64,000 nucleotides of DNA. Origin: Halobacteriovorax marinus. GTDB taxonomy: Bacteria > Bdellovibrionota > Bacteriovoracia > Bacteriovoracales > Bacteriovoracaceae. The translations under genes and the position numbers were made by a program. The notes under the pieces were generated by a model. It saw only the letters and a list, made by a program, of their open reading frames with translations, had not been told where the DNA came from and searched no databases. This document shows, piece after piece, positions 6,620-16,810 of this stretch (the stretch's first letter is position 1; each line of letters starts with the position of its first letter). The stretch spans positions 1,116,001 through 1,180,000 of the forward strand of contig MAAO01000006.1 in NCBI GenBank assembly GCA_002163155.1, written 5' to 3'.

Positions 6620-9600
6620 GTGAAAGCATTTTTAACATTTAAAATATGTCTATTGATGGCCCTGATTTGCACTAATGTAAGTGCGAAGGTTGAATTGATT
6701 CCTTTGGATTCTTCAAGAATTCCTAGTAACGATTTAATTCACCCTGAGCTTGGAAAATTAACTTCTGAGCTAGCTTGGCAATTACAAATGGGTGAGAACC
6801 CAATTGATCTCTCTCTCTTAAATCCTGAGGAAAGTGCAGTTTGGAAAAACCAAACTGATAGTCATTTAGATAATGGTATTGATGAAATACAAGTCAGTGC
6901 AGATACGGAACTCGTTTTCCTTGGTGTGATTGGTTCACAATCTGGAACTCTTCGTTTCACAGTTCTTGATGGGTCTACGGGAAATATCCTAACTGTCGCA
7001 CTTGATAAGAATCTTCATACACTTCTTTTAAGAAAGAATATGCTTAGAAAATTGGGTTATGTCATTCCCGCAATGAAGTTCCAAAATAAATTAAAGGTTG
7101 CTTTCAATTCAGCTGAAGAAAAGAAACATTTCTTAGAGCGAACAATTCCTGAAAATACTTTTGGTTCTCCAAATAGATGGCTAGTGGCTGAAGAAGAATT
7201 AACTATTGATCTACAAGATGCTCTCGTTATGCTTCCAGCATACGGTGATCACTATAATTTAGCTTTTGGAGTACCCCCAAAAACACAAACAAGTCGTACT
7301 CTAAGGTCTTTAATTGTTCCTTATTCATTATTGGATTTAAAGGAGAGTGTGAATGTTCTAAGTTGGAAGGGTGCAAGAGTTGAAGAGAATGCAGTTGAAT
7401 TAAGCCACTTCACCCTGGCCGATATGAATGCTTCGGTAGATGATGCTAAATGGTCACTTAATCGTATTCATAAATTAACTCGTGATGATTTCGTAGATAT
7501 TGTAGAAAAATCTTATTTCCCTAAAGAAGTAAAACTTCTTCTTGTGGAAAAACTCATTTCAAGAAGAAATAACCTCCTAGATGTCTTCGATGTAGAGTCA
7601 GAGAAAATGAACTTTAACTCTAAGGTCTCTCTTGGTGAGAACCTTGTTGATGGAAGATTACAAACTGAAAACTTCGAAGGATATGCATCGAGATTTGCCT
7701 ACGGCGATCCTGATTCACCTTTTAGAGAACTTAAGTATTCTTTCTTAAGTAAAATTCAATCAGATTTAATTGATAACCTCATCGGAGAAGTAAATTCTAA
7801 ACTCTCTCTCTTTGATTTAAATGATGCGAGACTTGATTACTATAAAGAGGAGTTTCAAAATGGTCTGGATCACTTCGTAAACACCGGAGAGTTTCTAGAG
7901 CAGCAGGTAGGAACTTGGGTAGCGCCAATAGTTGGAGGGAGTATCATTCTCTCTCGTGATGTTATCGTTGGTAACTACCAGGGCTCAGATAATCTTGTGC
8001 AAACAGCAGATACTTTTGGTTATGGAATAAATCTTGGTGCCCACGTGGGAATCGAAGGTTTACCTGTTGGTTACACGGCTTTTGCTAGAGGAACTGTTCA
8101 CTATGTAAAAACTTATTCTCACTTAAAACCAGTTCAATCTCTTAAGGCCTCACTCAAAGAGCCCTATAGAAATATGATTGTGACTTTAGTGAAAAAAGAT
8201 ATTCAAAGTGCTCTCACTGAACTCTCAACTATCGATCAGATTCAAGATGTGGAAGAGAGAAATGAAAAAGCTAAGAAAATTGTTGATAATTTAAACAAAC
8301 ACCTAGGTGTTGGAGAGTCTCTTGTAATAACAGATAGACTTACTCCATCCTTCCTTGTGAAAGGCGGATACTCTTGGGCCAATACAAAATTAAGTATGAC
8401 AGTTGATGCTAAGTCTCTGATGGTGAAGAGAGTTCACATCTTTAGAAAAGACGCTGATACTATCCAAGTTTATATTGATAATGGAAAGCTTGGTTCTATG
8501 GGAGTTTCTCTGGCCCTTGATGCCTATATTCCAGTGACAAAAATTCAATTCAAAAGATCAAAAGGTAAGTATAAAGTAGAACTCTTTGATGTGAATATTA
8601 ATTCTGATCTTTCAAGAAATCCTGAGCTCTTTCAAGGAGCGACAGCACTTTCGGCCCTTCTAAAAGATGGAACTAAGGAATTATTAAAGACTTACAAATC
8701 ACCGTATAAATTGGAAAATAATTTTCATGATACCAGTTCTAAATTTTCATTTTTAAACTGGCGTATGAAGAAACTTAAGAAACGTGGGAATATCTCTGTA
8801 TTAACTCCAAAGAATCATGAGGCGACTTTCTTTAAGTATACGCACCAAAAAATGATGGGGATTAATAATTGGGCCTTTGCTCGTGATATTGCTAATTACT
8901 ACTTAAACCAATTAACTGAATATTTAACACTTAAGAATGAGACTTGGAAAAATCCAGCTCAAACTTTCTACGGTGTGAGTAAGACGAAAGGTGTACGCTT
9001 TGAGAGTCGCTTTGCTAAGGATAAGTCTGGAAAGGACAAGTATCCTGGCGCATTTCTATCCATGGATAACAAGAGAGAAGGCTGGAAAATTAAAGAGAAG
9101 AAACTTAAGAAAGTCATAAAAGAAGTAAATGGGGAATATGGAAGAGTGATCTTTTCAGATTCTGATATTGATGATGCTACAGGATTAAAGCTCTACTCTA
9201 TAATTGTAAATTTAAATATTTATAAACAAGGTGTTTGGAATATATTGAATTATTCAGATGACCAAATTAAAGGGCTTGGAAGAGTTTACCGTAGAAGAAA
9301 TTATAATCGTCGTCACTGTTCTTTAAGTCGTTTAAGTGGAGCACCTATTGCTAAGAAGATTCATTGTGGTCAATTTCAACCTTTCATGGATCAGAGAGAA
9401 AAGTGTGCTAAGAAACTTAGAAAAGATAAAGATAGTGCTATCGCTTGTATAGTTGATCTAGCGATTATGTACAATCGGCATCTCAAGTTTTCTGACTTTG
9501 TTTCAATTATTGGAAAAGAACATATCTATCTCTATGGAACTATTTCTGGCTTTAGACAAGATAGTGATATTTTAGCAACACCTATTAGAGGAAACACAAT

Positions 9601-9709
9601 GGGAGTTATTTCAAGTAAGTACTGGAATGGGCCTGTTGAGGAACTTAGAGAGAAGATTGGAATGCAGGCAAATGAATTCAATGGCTCGTGGTTAAGGGAG
9701 AATATGTAA
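6620..9709 (+). CDS. Large secreted protein, lineage-specific family (paralogue of 34889-37012)
   Basis: 1029 residues with a signal peptide (FKICLLMALICTNVSA, cleavage before KVEL). No known domain was recognised. The middle holds short Gly- and beta-rich stretches (WVAPIVGGSIILS, FGYGINLGAHVGIEGLPVGY) that could be membrane-associated strands. The C-terminal 250 residues are basic with four spaced Cys (RRHCSLS, KIHCGQF, REKCAKK, IACIVD). A C-terminal block (IYLYGTISGF...GNTMGVISSKYW) and the middle YTAFARG block recur in the 34889-37012 protein. The start is GTG at 6620 after GAGGA at 6611-6615. Its stop overlaps the ATG of the following subtilase (TAATG), so the two are co-translated and probably act together outside the cell. 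Confidence 0.8.
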   Translation: MKAFLTFKICLLMALICTNVSAKVELIPLDSSRIPSNDLIHPELGKLTSELAWQLQMGENPIDLSLLNPEESAVWKNQTDSHLDNGIDEIQVSADTELVFLGVIGSQSGTLRFTVLDGSTGNILTVALDKNLHTLLLRKNMLRKLGYVIPAMKFQNKLKVAFNSAEEKKHFLERTIPENTFGSPNRWLVAEEELTIDLQDALVMLPAYGDHYNLAFGVPPKTQTSRTLRSLIVPYSLLDLKESVNVLSWKGARVEENAVELSHFTLADMNASVDDAKWSLNRIHKLTRDDFVDIVEKSYFPKEVKLLLVEKLISRRNNLLDVFDVESEKMNFNSKVSLGENLVDGRLQTENFEGYASRFAYGDPDSPFRELKYSFLSKIQSDLIDNLIGEVNSKLSLFDLNDARLDYYKEEFQNGLDHFVNTGEFLEQQVGTWVAPIVGGSIILSRDVIVGNYQGSDNLVQTADTFGYGINLGAHVGIEGLPVGYTAFARGTVHYVKTYSHLKPVQSLKASLKEPYRNMIVTLVKKDIQSALTELSTIDQIQDVEERNEKAKKIVDNLNKHLGVGESLVITDRLTPSFLVKGGYSWANTKLSMTVDAKSLMVKRVHIFRKDADTIQVYIDNGKLGSMGVSLALDAYIPVTKIQFKRSKGKYKVELFDVNINSDLSRNPELFQGATALSALLKDGTKELLKTYKSPYKLENNFHDTSSKFSFLNWRMKKLKKRGNISVLTPKNHEATFFKYTHQKMMGINNWAFARDIANYYLNQLTEYLTLKNETWKNPAQTFYGVSKTKGVRFESRFAKDKSGKDKYPGAFLSMDNKREGWKIKEKKLKKVIKEVNGEYGRVIFSDSDIDDATGLKLYSIIVNLNIYKQGVWNILNYSDDQIKGLGRVYRRRNYNRRHCSLSRLSGAPIAKKIHCGQFQPFMDQREKCAKKLRKDKDSAIACIVDLAIMYNRHLKFSDFVSIIGKEHIYLYGTISGFRQDSDILATPIRGNTMGVISSKYWNGPVEELREKIGMQANEFNGSWLRENM

Positions 9710-12531
9710 TGAGAAAACTAATAGCTCCTTTTTTCATCTGTCTTTCAGTATTTGCTAACGATCCGCTTAGTTCTTTACAGTGGGCCTTACAAAACAATGG
9801 TCAGCCTATATTTAGATCAACTGGTGAACTCACTAGAGACTTTATTCCAGGTCTTAAAGGCGAAGACCTAGGTATTCCAAAAGACTACCAAGCTACAGAT
9901 AAGACAGTCATTGTAGCTGTCATCGATTCAGGAGTTGATTTTGAACACCCTGATTTAAAAGATAATATTTGGGAAAATCCAAAGTGTAAGGATTTAAATG
10001 CTGAAGAGAGAGCAAAAGAAGCCTGTCATGGTTGGAATTTTCTAGATGGTAATAGTGATATTACTGATGATGTGGGGCACGGAACTCACGTGGCCGGAAT
10101 TATCGCGGCAGTTGAAGGAAATGGTAAAGGGATAAGAGGCGCTGCTTCTAAGAATGTTAAAATCATGCCTTTAAAGATATTAAACTCTAAAGTGAAATCA
10201 TTCGTCTATGAAAAGAAAGTGATTACAAATATCATAGCTGATGCCATAGCCTTTGCTATTAGTAATGGTGCACAGGTTATTAACTTAAGTTTAGGATGGC
10301 CAAAACTCATTCACACTAAGAAAGTTCGCTTTGCCATAAATAAGGCGATAGAGAAGAACATCCCTATTATTGTGGCCTCTGGAAATAATAATAAGAAAGT
10401 TCCCGTTTATCCTTGTTCGTATAATGAAGTGATCTGCGTGGGCGCGATGGATAATAATGGACGAATTCCTGAGTTTTCTAACTTTGGTGGAAAAGTAGAT
10501 ATCGTAGCTCCTGGTGAAGGTATTATCAGTACCTATCCAAGAAATATGGAGTCTCGCTTGCTAAGGATTCCAGGTTATGAAATTAAAAAAGGGTCATCAC
10601 AAGCTGCTCCTTTTGTGTCAGCATTAGTCGCGCTTTTAAAGAGTCAAAATCAAGAAATATCAATAGATGAAATAAAATATAGAATTTTCAAAAGTGCCAC
10701 GTCTCTTAGAGATAAGAAACAGGCTAAGTTTGGAAAAATTAACTTTAAGAAAATGTTAGATGTCTCATTAGAAGGGGACTTTCCAAAGTTTAATTTTAAA
10801 AACTTAACTGAAGTTGTCGTTTCTGAAGAGGGGAAGTACAGACTCTCTCTTCCTGTAAGAGCTCTTATGAAAGACATTGCAGCAATAGATGTAAAAGTCT
10901 CTCTTACTGATGGTGAGAAAATTATTTCGACAAAAGTTTTTAAAGATTTAAAAATTCTTCAGAGAAAAGAGCGAACTCTCGGTATCAGTGGACAAATTTC
11001 TGATTTTTCTATCTCTAGTCATCTCTCTCTTATTGTTGAATACAATGGAAAGAGATTGGATCACGAAGTTGCCTTTGTTAGACAAATTGAAAAAGTCGCT
11101 AATAAATTAGTCTTTAAACCAAAAGTTAAAGCCTCTCATATTCTAGTTTTAAATAGAGGTAGAAAGATATCAAAACTTAGGAAAGTTGTCGCGAATAAGT
11201 TTACTCAAGACTCTCTTGATTACTTCTATGAACTTGAAAAATCTGAAGATGAATCAAGGATTCAAATCGTATCTCTTATTGGTGATAAAACACTAGAGAC
11301 AGTTATTAAGCTCACTAAGGTAGAAAAGGTCATAAATGTAGTTAAGAATGATTTCAATTTCGACGGAAAAGCAGACTATATGATTTATTCTCTCGGAAAA
11401 GATAAACTGAATCTCGTTCTTAGTTTCTTTAATAAAGATGGATCTGCTTTATTTGGTGATAAATCTGATTGGTTCTTAGAAATTTCTGACTTTGAGGGAT
11501 TACCGTTCTTTAATGGCGAAGTAAAATTTGAATATTTAAAAGTTCATTCTAAAGAGTTGGGAGATGTAAAAGTTCCTCTCTTTATGAAAACTTGGAAAAT
11601 GCCAGAGCTCGATAATACTCTTGATCCTCTCGATCGTATTCACGAACTAGCGGCGAGTAAGAAGCCTTATTATCTGCTACCTACTGTTAGTGAAGGTAGA
11701 GTTTCATTAACTATCAGAACTCTCGCTTCATTTGATTTTATGAGTGAATTTAGAGAAAGATATGACATCAAAGATAGAGATGCCCTTTTCTTCGATACTA
11801 TCATCACGCAAACTACAGCTGAAGCTAGCAAAGGTCAGTTTTCTGCTGTTATGATTAGCGGTCGTGAATTTAATAAATTGTATTATAAAATTAACTTTTA
11901 TTCTAATACAGAGTTTGAATTAGAAGAGTTAAACTTTTCAGGTTATGGTCTTGAGTCTAATAAGACAATGACTAGTATGAATGAAGCGAGTAGCTTTAGG
12001 GCCTCATTCGCCCTAAACGATAGACAGAATCTTAGAACTATCTTTTGGAACGATGAAGGCCAAAGAGAAGTGATGAATTTTAAAACTTCAACTTGGGGAG
12101 ATCTTCTCTTTGACGTCTTTAACTTTACAGATGTTGATGATGAGAAATTACTCTTTGTTGAAAGTCGTTACTATATCTATACAGTCAATGGACTAGGAGA
12201 CTCAGTTAAACTCCCTATTAATAGAGAGAGTAGTTTTCCTGGGGTTAACTTCTCGGAAACTTTTAAGAGTGTTCAAGTGAGTGATAACGATTCTTTGAGA
12301 CCAGCGCTACTGGTTGATTCAAGCTTAATCTATGGAGATCGACTCTATGCTATGGTTTACGATGAAGGGAAGTTCTCGGCTCCTGTTTACGCTAGTTACG
12401 TTGTGCCTAAGAATTGTAAGTATATTGACTCTGTAACATTTAAGAAAAAATCAACGATTGTTCTGGCCTGTTTAGGTAGAACTGGAAGTGCAAGTTTAGA
12501 GCTGGTTAACTTAGAAAAGCGTGTTAAATAG
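9709..12531 (+). CDS. Secreted subtilisin-like serine protease (S8) with long C-terminal region
   Basis: 940 residues; signal peptide to about residue 16 (FFICLSVFA). The catalytic triad is intact: D73 in VAVIDSGVDF, H124 in GHGTHVAGI and S297 in GSSQAAPFVSA, where the usual GTSMAAP is replaced by GSSQAAP; the oxyanion segment IPIIVASGNNN is present. The propeptide region is very short. About 600 residues follow the protease domain without a recognised fold; NFDGKADYMIY resembles an FG-GAP/VCBS-type calcium-binding loop. The start is the ATG at 9709, overlapping the previous stop; an in-frame upstream codon at 9688 would lie in the neighbour and spoil the signal peptide. Likely role: digestion of prey or environmental proteins (inference). 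Confidence 0.9.
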   Translation: MRKLIAPFFICLSVFANDPLSSLQWALQNNGQPIFRSTGELTRDFIPGLKGEDLGIPKDYQATDKTVIVAVIDSGVDFEHPDLKDNIWENPKCKDLNAEERAKEACHGWNFLDGNSDITDDVGHGTHVAGIIAAVEGNGKGIRGAASKNVKIMPLKILNSKVKSFVYEKKVITNIIADAIAFAISNGAQVINLSLGWPKLIHTKKVRFAINKAIEKNIPIIVASGNNNKKVPVYPCSYNEVICVGAMDNNGRIPEFSNFGGKVDIVAPGEGIISTYPRNMESRLLRIPGYEIKKGSSQAAPFVSALVALLKSQNQEISIDEIKYRIFKSATSLRDKKQAKFGKINFKKMLDVSLEGDFPKFNFKNLTEVVVSEEGKYRLSLPVRALMKDIAAIDVKVSLTDGEKIISTKVFKDLKILQRKERTLGISGQISDFSISSHLSLIVEYNGKRLDHEVAFVRQIEKVANKLVFKPKVKASHILVLNRGRKISKLRKVVANKFTQDSLDYFYELEKSEDESRIQIVSLIGDKTLETVIKLTKVEKVINVVKNDFNFDGKADYMIYSLGKDKLNLVLSFFNKDGSALFGDKSDWFLEISDFEGLPFFNGEVKFEYLKVHSKELGDVKVPLFMKTWKMPELDNTLDPLDRIHELAASKKPYYLLPTVSEGRVSLTIRTLASFDFMSEFRERYDIKDRDALFFDTIITQTTAEASKGQFSAVMISGREFNKLYYKINFYSNTEFELEELNFSGYGLESNKTMTSMNEASSFRASFALNDRQNLRTIFWNDEGQREVMNFKTSTWGDLLFDVFNFTDVDDEKLLFVESRYYIYTVNGLGDSVKLPINRESSFPGVNFSETFKSVQVSDNDSLRPALLVDSSLIYGDRLYAMVYDEGKFSAPVYASYVVPKNCKYIDSVTFKKKSTIVLACLGRTGSASLELVNLEKRVK

Positions 12532-14187: not shown

Positions 14188-15219
14188 ATGAACGCTGAAA
14201 ATAGTGTATGGAAATTAATTAACGATTTAAATTCTAAAAAGGGAATAACTGAAATTGTTATTAATGGTCCTAAGAATGTCTTTGTAGAACGTGGGGGACA
14301 ATTCATTCAACTCAATGTGGCCCTTACTAAGCAAGATATTTACTCTTTCATTGATGAGGTGGCAGACTTTAATAAAAAGGTTTGTAATAAAAATACTCCT
14401 ATTCTAGATGGAAATCTTCCTGATGGCTCGAGAATAAATGCCATTGTAGAACCATTTTCCAGCGGTTTTCCTTCAATTTCCATAAGAAAGTATATTCGCT
14501 CAATTACTGACTTTGATAGCTCTCCTGGTATTTTTGGTATTGAGCCTAAGTGGGTGGAGTTTTTAAAAGCAGCTGTTTCGGCGAGATTGAATATCATTAT
14601 TTCAGGGGGAACAGGAGTAGGTAAGACTACTTTTATGAACCTTTTATTGAAAGAAATTAGTCCCGCAGAGAGGATTGTAACTATTGAAGATACACTGGAA
14701 TTAAATATATCCATTCCCAATTTAGTGAGACTAGAGGCGGGAAGTAAAGTTGAATCGAGTGATATATCTATACGCGATTTAGTAAAGAATACTTTGAGAA
14801 TGCGACCAGATAGAATTATTCTCGGCGAAATACGTGGAGGAGAGTTCTTTGATTTACTGCAAGCGATGAATACGGGACACGATGGAAGTATGACTTCTCT
14901 TCATGCCAATTCAGCTGCTGAGTGTATTAATAGAATGGAGACTCTCTTTCTAATGTCAGGTTTCGATGTTCCCTTTCAAGTGGTGAGAAGACAGATGAGT
15001 ACGGCAATTGATCTCATTTTACAACTCTCTAGGGATAGAGATGGAAATAGAATTTTAAAAACAATTCAAGAAGTGACAGGAATGGAGGGGACTAATATTC
15101 TCTCGCAAACTCTTGCTACTCATGAAGATGGAAAACTCTCTTCCACAGGTATAAGTGCCAAGAACATGGAAAAGCTTCACCACATGGGTGCGCTTCCGAT
15201 TGATTTCTTCAATTCATAA
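14188..15219 (+). CDS. cpaF: CpaF/TadA-type secretion or pilus ATPase
   Basis: 343 residues, somewhat shorter than typical CpaF (about 450), because the N-terminal helical extension is reduced. The GSPE-family core is intact: Walker A SGGTGVGKTT (K146), Asp box IVTIEDTLEL, Walker B RIILGEIRGGE and His box GHDGSMTSLHAN. These ATPases drive Tad/Flp pilus assembly or type II-like secretion. No tadB, tadC, secretin, pilin or prepilin peptidase is nearby, so the ATPase is solitary and would have to work with partners encoded elsewhere. RBS GGTG precedes the ATG. Confidence 0.88.
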   Translation: MNAENSVWKLINDLNSKKGITEIVINGPKNVFVERGGQFIQLNVALTKQDIYSFIDEVADFNKKVCNKNTPILDGNLPDGSRINAIVEPFSSGFPSISIRKYIRSITDFDSSPGIFGIEPKWVEFLKAAVSARLNIIISGGTGVGKTTFMNLLLKEISPAERIVTIEDTLELNISIPNLVRLEAGSKVESSDISIRDLVKNTLRMRPDRIILGEIRGGEFFDLLQAMNTGHDGSMTSLHANSAAECINRMETLFLMSGFDVPFQVVRRQMSTAIDLILQLSRDRDGNRILKTIQEVTGMEGTNILSQTLATHEDGKLSSTGISAKNMEKLHHMGALPIDFFNS

Positions 15220-15223
15220 AGCC

Positions 15224-15260
15224 AAAAAAAAAAAGGCCCCATTAAATAAATAATGGAGCC
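15224..15260 (-). terminator. Terminator, mainly for the minus-strand Kazal-like gene
   Basis: GGCCCCATTA (15235-15244) pairs with TAATGGAGCC (15251-15260) with one wobble. Eleven As at 15224-15234 become a U11 tail on the minus strand. It also lies just after the plus-strand ATPase stop, so it may act both ways, but the plus direction has only two Ts. Confidence 0.82.
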
Positions 15261-15291
15261 TTCACACACTATCGAATAAATCTTGGGGGAT

Positions 15292-15747
15292 TTATTCGTT
15301 TTCACACTCACCGTTATATACAAAATTTGCACCCGAACTTAAGAGCTCACAGAAGTTTCCGTAAGTCTTGGTCTCTGGCATAACTTGAATGCACACATCA
15401 CTTTCACATTTTGGCATTTTTGGCTGTCCACAAATAGGCATGTATATTTCCGGACAGTAAGCAGGCTCGTCTTCTTCAGTATCTAAACATGCATAAACTT
15501 CTAGAAGAGAGTAAGTATCAGCAGGGGCCCAGTTGTTAACAATTTCATAGAGTCCATTTTCACAAGTTTGCACTTTGTGATCAAAACTCACTATGGGAAA
15601 ATCTCCCGCACTAGTTTTGAGAACCATGTGTACTAGGTCACTATTCTCGCCAAGGTTTGGAACAAGTTTTCCAGAAACCGTAAAGGCAACATTGGCCGTC
15701 GCTGACAAAGAAATTAAAAGAAGTAAAAGTGTTGTTAGTGTTTTCAT
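15292..15747 (-). CDS. Secreted protein with a C-terminal Kazal-like domain
   Basis: 151 residues with a signal peptide (TLLLLLISLSATA, cleavage before NVAF). The last about 55 residues follow the Kazal serine-protease-inhibitor pattern: C-x6-PICG, an insertion with two extra Cys (KCESDVC), then KTYGNFCELLSSG and FVYNGEC. The conserved TYGNxC and final Cys are present. Kazal domains inhibit serine proteases by a substrate-like loop. In a cell that secretes subtilases, a self-protective inhibitor is plausible but unproven. The start has GAGGA upstream; the gene is monocistronic with a strong terminator. Confidence 0.78.
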   Translation of the reverse strand: MKTLTTLLLLLISLSATANVAFTVSGKLVPNLGENSDLVHMVLKTSAGDFPIVSFDHKVQTCENGLYEIVNNWAPADTYSLLEVYACLDTEEDEPAYCPEIYMPICGQPKMPKCESDVCIQVMPETKTYGNFCELLSSGANFVYNGECENE

Positions 15748-15840
15748 TTTTCCTCATCGGAATTAATTAAGTTGAGGCGGTTATAGGCCTAAACCTTGAA
15801 AAAAAGAAACAATATTTTTTTATGTGAGATAATAAGTAGG

Positions 15841-15870
15841 GCTTATGATAAGCTGTGTCTTATGATTAGC
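15841..15870 (+). promoter_or_regulatory. Candidate LysR binding site (palindrome plus direct repeat)
   Basis: GCTTATGATAAGC at 15841-15853 is a perfect interrupted palindrome (GCTTAT-G-ATAAGC), and CTTATGATTAGC at 15859-15870 repeats it 17 bases later. It lies 28 bases upstream of the LysR gene start, between it and the divergent Kazal-like gene. It could serve autoregulation or control of both genes. Confidence 0.45.
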
Positions 15871-15898: not shown

Positions 15899-16810
15899 AT
15901 GTTCATTGACTCGTTTAATTTAAACTTACTCCGTATCTTTGAATGCGTTTACCGCAATCAGAACATGACTAAGGCCTCCTACGAGCTACATATGACTCAG
16001 TCTGGGGTCAGTCAGAATATTAAAAACCTTGAAGAAGTCTTAGGCTTTACTCTCTTTGACCGTATTAAGAAGAAACCTATTCCTACGGAGAAGGCACATT
16101 TAATGTATGAAATGTGCCGCAGTAATCTCTACAATATTGAGGCGACCCTAGGGAAACTCATGGGGGTTGAGCAGGAATTCTCCGGAACTATTTCCATAGG
16201 ACTTCCCATTGAGTTTGGAAACAATATTATTCTTCCGCTGCTCAGTGAATTTTCTAAGAAGAATACGTCGGTTACTTATCGTATCGTTTATGGCCATGCA
16301 GCAGAAATGAACCAATTGATCTTGAAGGGAGAGTTGGACTTTTCTGTGGTTGATACTTTTGGATTTGATAAGGAAATAAAAACTGAGATCATTTCTAGTG
16401 AAGAATTGGTGCTCTGTGCTTCAAAGAATTATTTTTCAAAAAAGAAATCTTCATCCAAAATAGATAAGAACTTTTTTGAAACTTTAGAATACATTACTTA
16501 TATTGAAGGAGCACCCATTTTAAAGAATTGGTTTAAACACCACTATGGTTTTTCCAATTTATCTATCAACAGTAAGGCGACACTCATGAATGTTCAGGGA
16601 GTAGCTCAGTTAATAGTGCAAGATTTAGGAGTGGGAATTCTTCCGGTTCACATGGTGGAGAGGTTGAAGAAGCGGGGGGAGGATATTCATATCTTTAGGG
16701 CCAAGTCGGGGCCCTTGTACAACTCTCTCAGCATCGCTTACTTAGAATCAAAGACTATGAGTTCTGGGACTAGGGAATGTATTAAATATCTATCAAACTC
16801 TTTGAAATAA
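15899..16810 (+). CDS. LysR-family transcriptional regulator
   Basis: 303 residues. N-terminal winged helix: NLLRIFECVYRNQNMTKASYELHMTQSGVSQNIKNLEE is split over residues 8-45, with the recognition helix around QSGVSQNI. The C-terminal effector domain begins at GTISIGLP and ends with GVGILPVHMVE. LysR proteins often control the divergent neighbour, here the Kazal-like secreted protein. RBS AAGGTG lies upstream of the ATG. Confidence 0.92.
   Translation: MFIDSFNLNLLRIFECVYRNQNMTKASYELHMTQSGVSQNIKNLEEVLGFTLFDRIKKKPIPTEKAHLMYEMCRSNLYNIEATLGKLMGVEQEFSGTISIGLPIEFGNNIILPLLSEFSKKNTSVTYRIVYGHAAEMNQLILKGELDFSVVDTFGFDKEIKTEIISSEELVLCASKNYFSKKKSSSKIDKNFFETLEYITYIEGAPILKNWFKHHYGFSNLSINSKATLMNVQGVAQLIVQDLGVGILPVHMVERLKKRGEDIHIFRAKSGPLYNSLSIAYLESKTMSSGTRECIKYLSNSLK

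Follow-up and report, generated by a model that had tools for sequence, protein, structure and literature searches.

The gene at positions 15292..15747 (minus strand) of the 64,000-nucleotide stretch of Halobacteriovorax marinus DNA analysed here (the window) encodes a two-domain protein, the C-terminal part of which is, almost certainly, a Kazal domain of a non-classical subtype. We consider it fairly probable that the protein serves as an exported, regulated inhibitor of serine proteases in a bacterium of predatory lineage, a reading in which inhibition itself is deduced from analogy with known Kazal inhibitors.

The open reading frame specifies 151 amino acids from its ATG. Residues 1-18 (15694..15747, minus strand) resemble, by eye, a Sec signal peptide with a Lys, a hydrophobic core, an A-x-A motif and a likely cleavage site between ATA and N, and the protein is probably exported, judging from its sequence. 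A 70-residue OB-like domain follows within residues 19-90 (15478..15693, minus strand; delimited by alignments and a model), and the Kazal domain, defined by profiles and the predicted fold, spans residues 98-148 (15304..15456, minus strand). The protein contains eight Cys residues in total. Directly 3' of the gene lies an intrinsic terminator (15232..15263, minus strand), consisting of a 13-pair stem and a T run; two terminator-like sites were counted in the region of the Kazal gene, compared to 0.6 (standard deviation 0.9) in shuffled sequences. As the gene has homologues, synteny and a terminator, an origin of the reading frame by chance or artefact was rejected, and 15292-15747 is a real gene. 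A VirB11/TadA-type secretion ATPase gene (14188-15219) adjoins the Kazal gene, an arrangement found in only two of 12 neighbourhoods (10-19 kb each, two of them centred on paralogue-type genes), both from the same genus.

Concerning the C-terminal domain, the motif CPEIYMPICG-(20 residues, two of them Cys)-TYGNFC-ELLSSGANFVYNGEC exceeds chance expectation. The C2-x7-C3 loop, the subsequent [TS][YF]xN element, C4 and C6 are all present (CPEIYMPIC ... TYGNFC ... GEC), and the framework residues C2, C3, C4 and C6 correspond to C98, C106, C133 and C148. By this pattern, the bridges would be C2-C4 and C3-C6. Membership in the classical six-Cys Kazal group, represented by ovomucoid and PSTI and characterized by a C1-C5 bridge, was rejected because C1 and C5 are absent.

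When examined alone, the window protein scored 12.3 bits against the Pfam family Kazal_1 (PF00050), which is under the curated cut-off of 21, and an NCBIfam scan of the protein gave no match. A profile of 22 insert-type domains (A1), which carry an additional stretch between C3 and C4, matched solved Kazal inhibitors in the PDB on either side of the insert, with GmSPI-2 (E 4.5e-4) and horseshoe crab SPI-1 (E 0.0045) as the best matches. A1 comprises 22 of the 27 insert-type units found by one pattern and omits L011, L031, L038, L044 and the initial unit of L034; the source pattern did not capture some units, L006 and L013 among them. At E<=1, Kazal_1 was matched by 17 of 21 two-domain family members (best 2e-4) and Kazal_2 by 8 of the 21. 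The corresponding alignment (A2) holds 21 of 23 two-domain proteins, L011 and L022 being omitted. Among the insert-type domains, 13 of 22 matched Kazal_1 at E<=1 (best 0.0028), and the subtype is thus largely missed by Pfam. One insert-type protein, L087, is just above the Kazal_1 cut-off (21.7 bits), and two further proteins of the same genome as the window, the paralogue L002 and the Kazal protein L001, also exceed it.

The best match in terms of both profile and fold was GmSPI-2, silk protease inhibitor 2 from the insect Galleria mellonella (PDB 4hgu, 2m5x). It shares with the window domain the residues C2, C3, C4 and C6, the C2-x7-C3 spacing and, as predicted here, the β2-α-β fold, but has no insert between C3 and C4, no N-terminal domain, and Thr instead of Glu at P1. 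According to PMC4169406, GmSPI-2 has four Cys residues forming bridges 5-24 and 13-39, its P1 residue Thr7 lies between Cys5 and Cys13, which are separated by seven residues, and the protein is highly active against subtilisin and proteinase K. Domain 1 of the horseshoe crab protein CrSPI-1 (PDB 3pis, 3qtl) is also a two-bridge, non-classical Kazal domain (PMC3082530), with the loop CPHTYKPVCG in place of CPEIYMPICG. Unlike the window protein, it has His at P1 and no insert, and it is paired in tandem with a domain that has three bridges and Glu at P1.

Structure prediction with AlphaFold2, using 19 alignment rows, gave a pLDDT of 84 and a pTM of 0.51 for the mature protein, and 84 and 0.62 for the Kazal part, whose model displays the β2-α-β order of the Kazal fold. 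A Foldseek search of the PDB with the Kazal part returned six matches at E<=10 and none at E<=0.001. The top match was 4hgu, that is, GmSPI-2 (E 0.18, probability 1.00, rmsd 1.8, TM 0.86 by target length and 0.59 by query), followed by two leech tryptase inhibitor entries (2kmo and 1ldt) and, as matches four to six, unrelated phycobilisome chains. In a second structural comparison, 10 of the 11 entries listed at Z>=2 were Kazal or Kazal-like, with 4hgu at Z 6.0 and an rmsd of 1.4 over 40 residues; two of the ten are complement proteins, C6 and factor I, which contain Kazal-like modules. The best Z was below 8 in all fold comparisons, whether with the OB-like domain or the Kazal part, and modelled fold evidence at this level is weak by itself. 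Taken with the sequence and the Cys pattern, with which the predicted fold agrees, it makes the Kazal identity firm. The initial annotation had proposed a Kazal-like domain and had named structure prediction as a check, with a disulphide pattern incompatible with the Kazal fold as the outcome that would speak against it. A Kazal-like fold was predicted, no such incompatibility was seen, and the proposal was also borne out by the profile matches and the pairwise presence or absence of Cys residues.

In the window protein, a segment lying between Kazal Cys 3 and Cys 4, QPKMPKCESDVCIQVMPETK (residues 108-127; 15367..15426, minus strand), contains the extra Cys pair C114/C119. L007, the nearest syntenic orthologue, has neither of the two Cys residues and is 13 residues shorter at this site. 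What had initially been described as an unusual insert with two more Cys residues is indeed real, but it belongs to a kind that recurs and is not an isolated case. In the 23 two-domain proteins (window protein included), the Kazal unit has six Cys residues in ten cases, four in 13 and five in none; both insert Cys residues are found in ten, neither in 13 and a single one in none. As they always occur as both or neither, a disulphide between C114 and C119 is very likely. On a tree built without the insert stretch, with 9 of 20 inner branches open, insert presence calls for six changes, at least three of which are forced by well-supported branches, and no clear clustering of the insert label was seen (a value as low arose in 83 to 86 of 500 shuffles). 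By eye, C2 and C4 are jointly missing in L100 and L103 from Gracilibacteria and L101 from Patescibacteria, which retain C3, C6 and the insert pair despite this loss; in L100 and L103, the second repeats are likewise devoid of the two insert Cys residues. L100:1846-3465 and L103:1834-3375, read with TGA as Gly, contain many DxDxDG-type repeats and end in two Kazal-like repeats with Cys residues missing in pairs.

Concerning the N-terminal domain, no Pfam match was found for that of the window protein, and its sequence gave no convincing match to Pfam or the PDB. A Pfam scan of 19 members returned two chance-level families, with one member each, and the PDB search a single hit at E 0.62. The AlphaFold2 model, based on two sequences only, has the order β-β-β-α-β-β and matched many OB folds at Z up to 6.7. 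As judged from this model, the OB-fold resemblance reflects a common arrangement and implies no function. BOF/YgiW (1nnx) has a similar small OB-like fold (Z 5.5), but no sequence relation to it was found, and unrelated OB folds score equally high. C62 and C87 lie in this domain and are invariant in both the 21-row (A2) and the 19-row (A6) alignments; the invariant residues of the domain in the two-domain alignment include G26, L28, C62, G65 and C87. A6 serves as the N-domain profile and consists of 19 of 23 slices, omitting L015, L017, L028 and L029, which were mostly badly cut.

With the N-domain profile, 129 genomes of the order were searched and 27 places identified, in 26 genomes. A LysR-type gene adjoins and diverges from the N-domain gene in 24 of these places, window included; the exceptions are G044, where no LysR gene was found, G043 and the own-genome paralogue L002. 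In the window, the regulator gene lies at 15899..16810 (plus strand), upstream of the Kazal gene and separated from it by 151 bp; it was recognized with NCBIfam LysR-family models, the 25 listed matches all being under their cut-offs. The Kazal domain is kept in 23 of the 27 places, window included. In the other four (G001, G053, G054 and G056; L177-L180) the N-domain occurs alone, and a LysR gene is present in all four. The Kazal domain is therefore dispensable to the conserved unit. The main caution in our interpretation follows from this: it is the N-domain that is conserved alongside the regulator, and the Kazal part may be an accessory to it.

Between the two genes we found an operator-like inverted repeat, ATAAG-N5-CTTAT (15832..15846, no strand assigned), which we take to fit the T-N11-A form of LysR sites. 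It is the only exact copy within the window, and a near-copy, ATAAG-N6-CTTAT (15848-15863), lies directly after it. The exact repeat is present between the genes in 12 of 20 Kazal-bearing LysR pairs (window and G106 included) and in none of the four Kazal-less pairs; its absence from the latter may reflect a changed function, the numbers being small. In intergenic regions trimmed by 20 and 10 bases at their ends, it occurred in 8 of 19, compared to a mean of 0.01 and a maximum of 1 of 19 in 500 shuffles, counts that come from regions which are not independent because the species share ancestry. Trimming removed the real sites of L014, L022 and L029, and the same 19 regions untrimmed contained the repeat in 11 cases. 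Genome-wide, the pattern was not enriched (11 occurrences versus 20 for the reversed control), and therefore no regulon was obtained. Taking the conserved neighbour and the conserved site together, we infer that the LysR-type regulator probably controls the Kazal gene through ATAAG-N5-CTTAT.

By analogy to GmSPI-2, the P1 residue is located at C2+2, which corresponds to Glu100 (15448..15450, minus strand) in the reactive-site loop C98-x7-C106. Among the 23 two-domain proteins, the residue is Glu in 16, Lys in four and Ala in three. This is rather uniform for an inhibitor engaged in an arms race and would count against an inhibitory role. Many animal Kazal-fold domains are structural and not inhibitory. 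In terms of target, several Kazal domains with Glu at P1 are reported to inhibit subtilisin (PMC3082530), and an argument that P1 Glu speaks against subtilisin and for Glu-specific proteases was abandoned on the basis of that text. For a Bdellovibrio strain, a putative secreted protease of the V8-like, Glu-specific type, which was subsequently studied as BspK, has been reported (PMC7174725). Subtilisin-type and Glu-specific proteases may both be targets. At E<=0.001, the genome itself yielded 24 Trypsin-family and nine Peptidase_S8 hits, so that candidate targets are available; the counts probably include housekeeping proteases. Based on these analogies, we lean towards the view that the Kazal protein inhibits serine proteases, and a role in guarding the cell against its own subtilases or those of prey, as the initial annotation had suggested, is plausible.

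According to the reading that we prefer, the non-classical Kazal half, held by the bridges C2-C4 and C3-C6 only, would expose the canonical loop C98-P-E100-I101-Y-M-P-I-C106. With Glu100 at P1, it would most likely block subtilisin-type proteases or chymotrypsin-fold enzymes that accept Glu, acting in the periplasm or in the space shared with prey. The C3-C4 stretch would form a second small loop, closed by the C114-C119 bridge, in place of a hairpin turn; Kazal anatomy would place this loop at a distance from the reactive loop, and it probably contributes stability or a further contact. For the OB-like domain, the probable role is to bind a ligand or to keep the inhibitor where it acts, and the divergent LysR-type regulator would act on the gene via the inverted repeat.

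The roles of the two domains could also be the reverse. The OB-like domain would then be the worker and the true LysR partner, an envelope ligand-binding or stress protein, and the Kazal domain a structural or binding module. This would account for the four genomes with an N-domain alone beside the LysR gene, and the invariant residues of the N-domain point in the same direction. However, 23 of the 27 N-domain places retain the Kazal domain, the length of the reactive loop is kept, P1 is mostly kept, and the exact operator-like site accompanies 12 of the 20 LysR pairs with a Kazal domain and none of the four lacking it; taken together, we regard this alternative as rather unlikely. Far less probable still is a dedicated inhibitor of the neighbouring subtilase (9688-12531), the enzyme against which an assay had initially been proposed. 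The subtilase is a clear Peptidase_S8 member (1e-50), and by eye its likely signal peptide lies only about 50 residues ahead of the S8 match, which leaves no apparent I9 propeptide, nor was one reported by the Pfam scan; the two genes are near each other in G044 and G046. These two genomes are of the same genus, however, with the whole block collinear, and the subtilase was not found in the other ten of the 12 neighbourhoods. As the genome has eight further S8 hits as well, the neighbouring subtilase is not a favoured target. Its reading frame as listed overlaps one of 1029 amino acids (6620-9709) that gave no Pfam match over the cut-off.

If the protein is an inhibitor, it may be directed not at the predator's own enzymes but at proteases of prey or competitors freed on prey opening. 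The lineage of the related genomes (Bacteriovoracaceae, Halobacteriovorax) is predatory, and the names of these genomes agree with such a target, as does the occurrence of insert-type Kazal domains in Patescibacteria, a group in which a parasitic or episymbiotic way of life has been described for several members. Own and foreign targets are equally compatible with the present evidence, and we consider the foreign-target version doubtful, if possible. Predators flooding prey with proteases must control those proteases. One proposal, somewhat more doubtful, is that the disulphide-closed loop QPPMPxCPxGMxCxQVMP, common to Bacteriovoracaceae-like predators and Patescibacteria, is a transplantable second binding edge, and that the predators join an insert-type Kazal domain to an OB-like domain specific to their lineage and place the product under a LysR switch of its own, giving an inhibitor that would regulate proteolysis during prey attack. 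The open-access matches listed included no paper on both Kazal domains and predatory bacteria or Patescibacteria, and the main text of a comparative genomics paper (PMC11656739) contains neither 'inhibitor' nor 'serine protease'. The family offers a clean test, in that a single syntenic gene occurs in nature either with the bridged insert or lacking it, and either with the entire Kazal domain or lacking that as well, while P1 is mostly conserved and a candidate for the regulator is at hand. The Kazal subtype is also one that Pfam models mostly miss.

As for distribution, matches at E<=0.01 were found in 38 of the 129 same-order genomes, own genome included, some covering one domain only. At E<=0.001, profile A1 matched 37 of 368 genomes of the phylum, 34 of them in the family of the window; the other three (G173, G180 and G217) have the insert motif only. 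The own genome encodes at least four Kazal-like proteins, namely the product of the window gene, L001, L002 and L003. L001 is a classical six-Cys Kazal protein and L003 combines one classical and one insert-type domain; by eye, both are lipoprotein-like, their signal peptides ending in a Cys. L002 (G000:C8:34247-34618) resembles the window protein in its two-domain architecture and P1 Glu, but is without the insert, and no LysR neighbour was found.

Two insert-derived patterns, used to scan genome contigs, picked out 82 stretches and led to 28 confirmed insert loci, a result uninformative on insert-free Kazal domains and diverged inserts because the patterns derive from the insert; the window's own copy is diverged and fits neither pattern. 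Two genomes contribute two loci each, and the whole Kazal frame is not present in all. Sixteen loci are labelled Bacteriovoracaceae, Bacteriovoracia, Halobacteriovorax, Bdellovibrionales, Bdellovibrio, Oligoflexia, Deltaproteobacteria or 'bacterium', and 11 belong to Patescibacteria (Gracilibacteria, Moranii-, Woese-, Pace- and Liptonbacteria and unnamed groups). The remaining one (L084:1891-3786) is in a bin labelled Nanoarchaeota from the sample series PBR18, which it shares with a Gracilibacteria bin; this bin with an insert-type Kazal domain may be mis-binned Gracilibacteria. Alignments A4 and A5 contain 18 of the 28 loci. L018, L019, L084 and L087 carry an insert of the type C[GA]QPPMPxCPxGxxCxQVMP at the same place as in the window protein, but differ from it in having other or no N-terminal domains and a variable P1 residue.

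A scan of genome contigs with the single protein gave no relative among 46 stretches. A mobile origin received no support from plasmid, phage and viral-contig searches: the window protein gave no match to plasmids, the L018 domain none to plasmids and phages, and alignment A3 no confirmed relative in viral contigs, in which 35 stretches matched a pattern. In three Patescibacteria loci (L105:2593-3867, L106:1-1083 and L107:2473-4080) we observed the motif CYQPPMPxCPxGxACxQVMPAxxC, which is nearly identical to the Kazal insert and lies outside a Kazal framework, between other Cys residues; L105 and L107, the two that were scanned, also contain dockerin domains.
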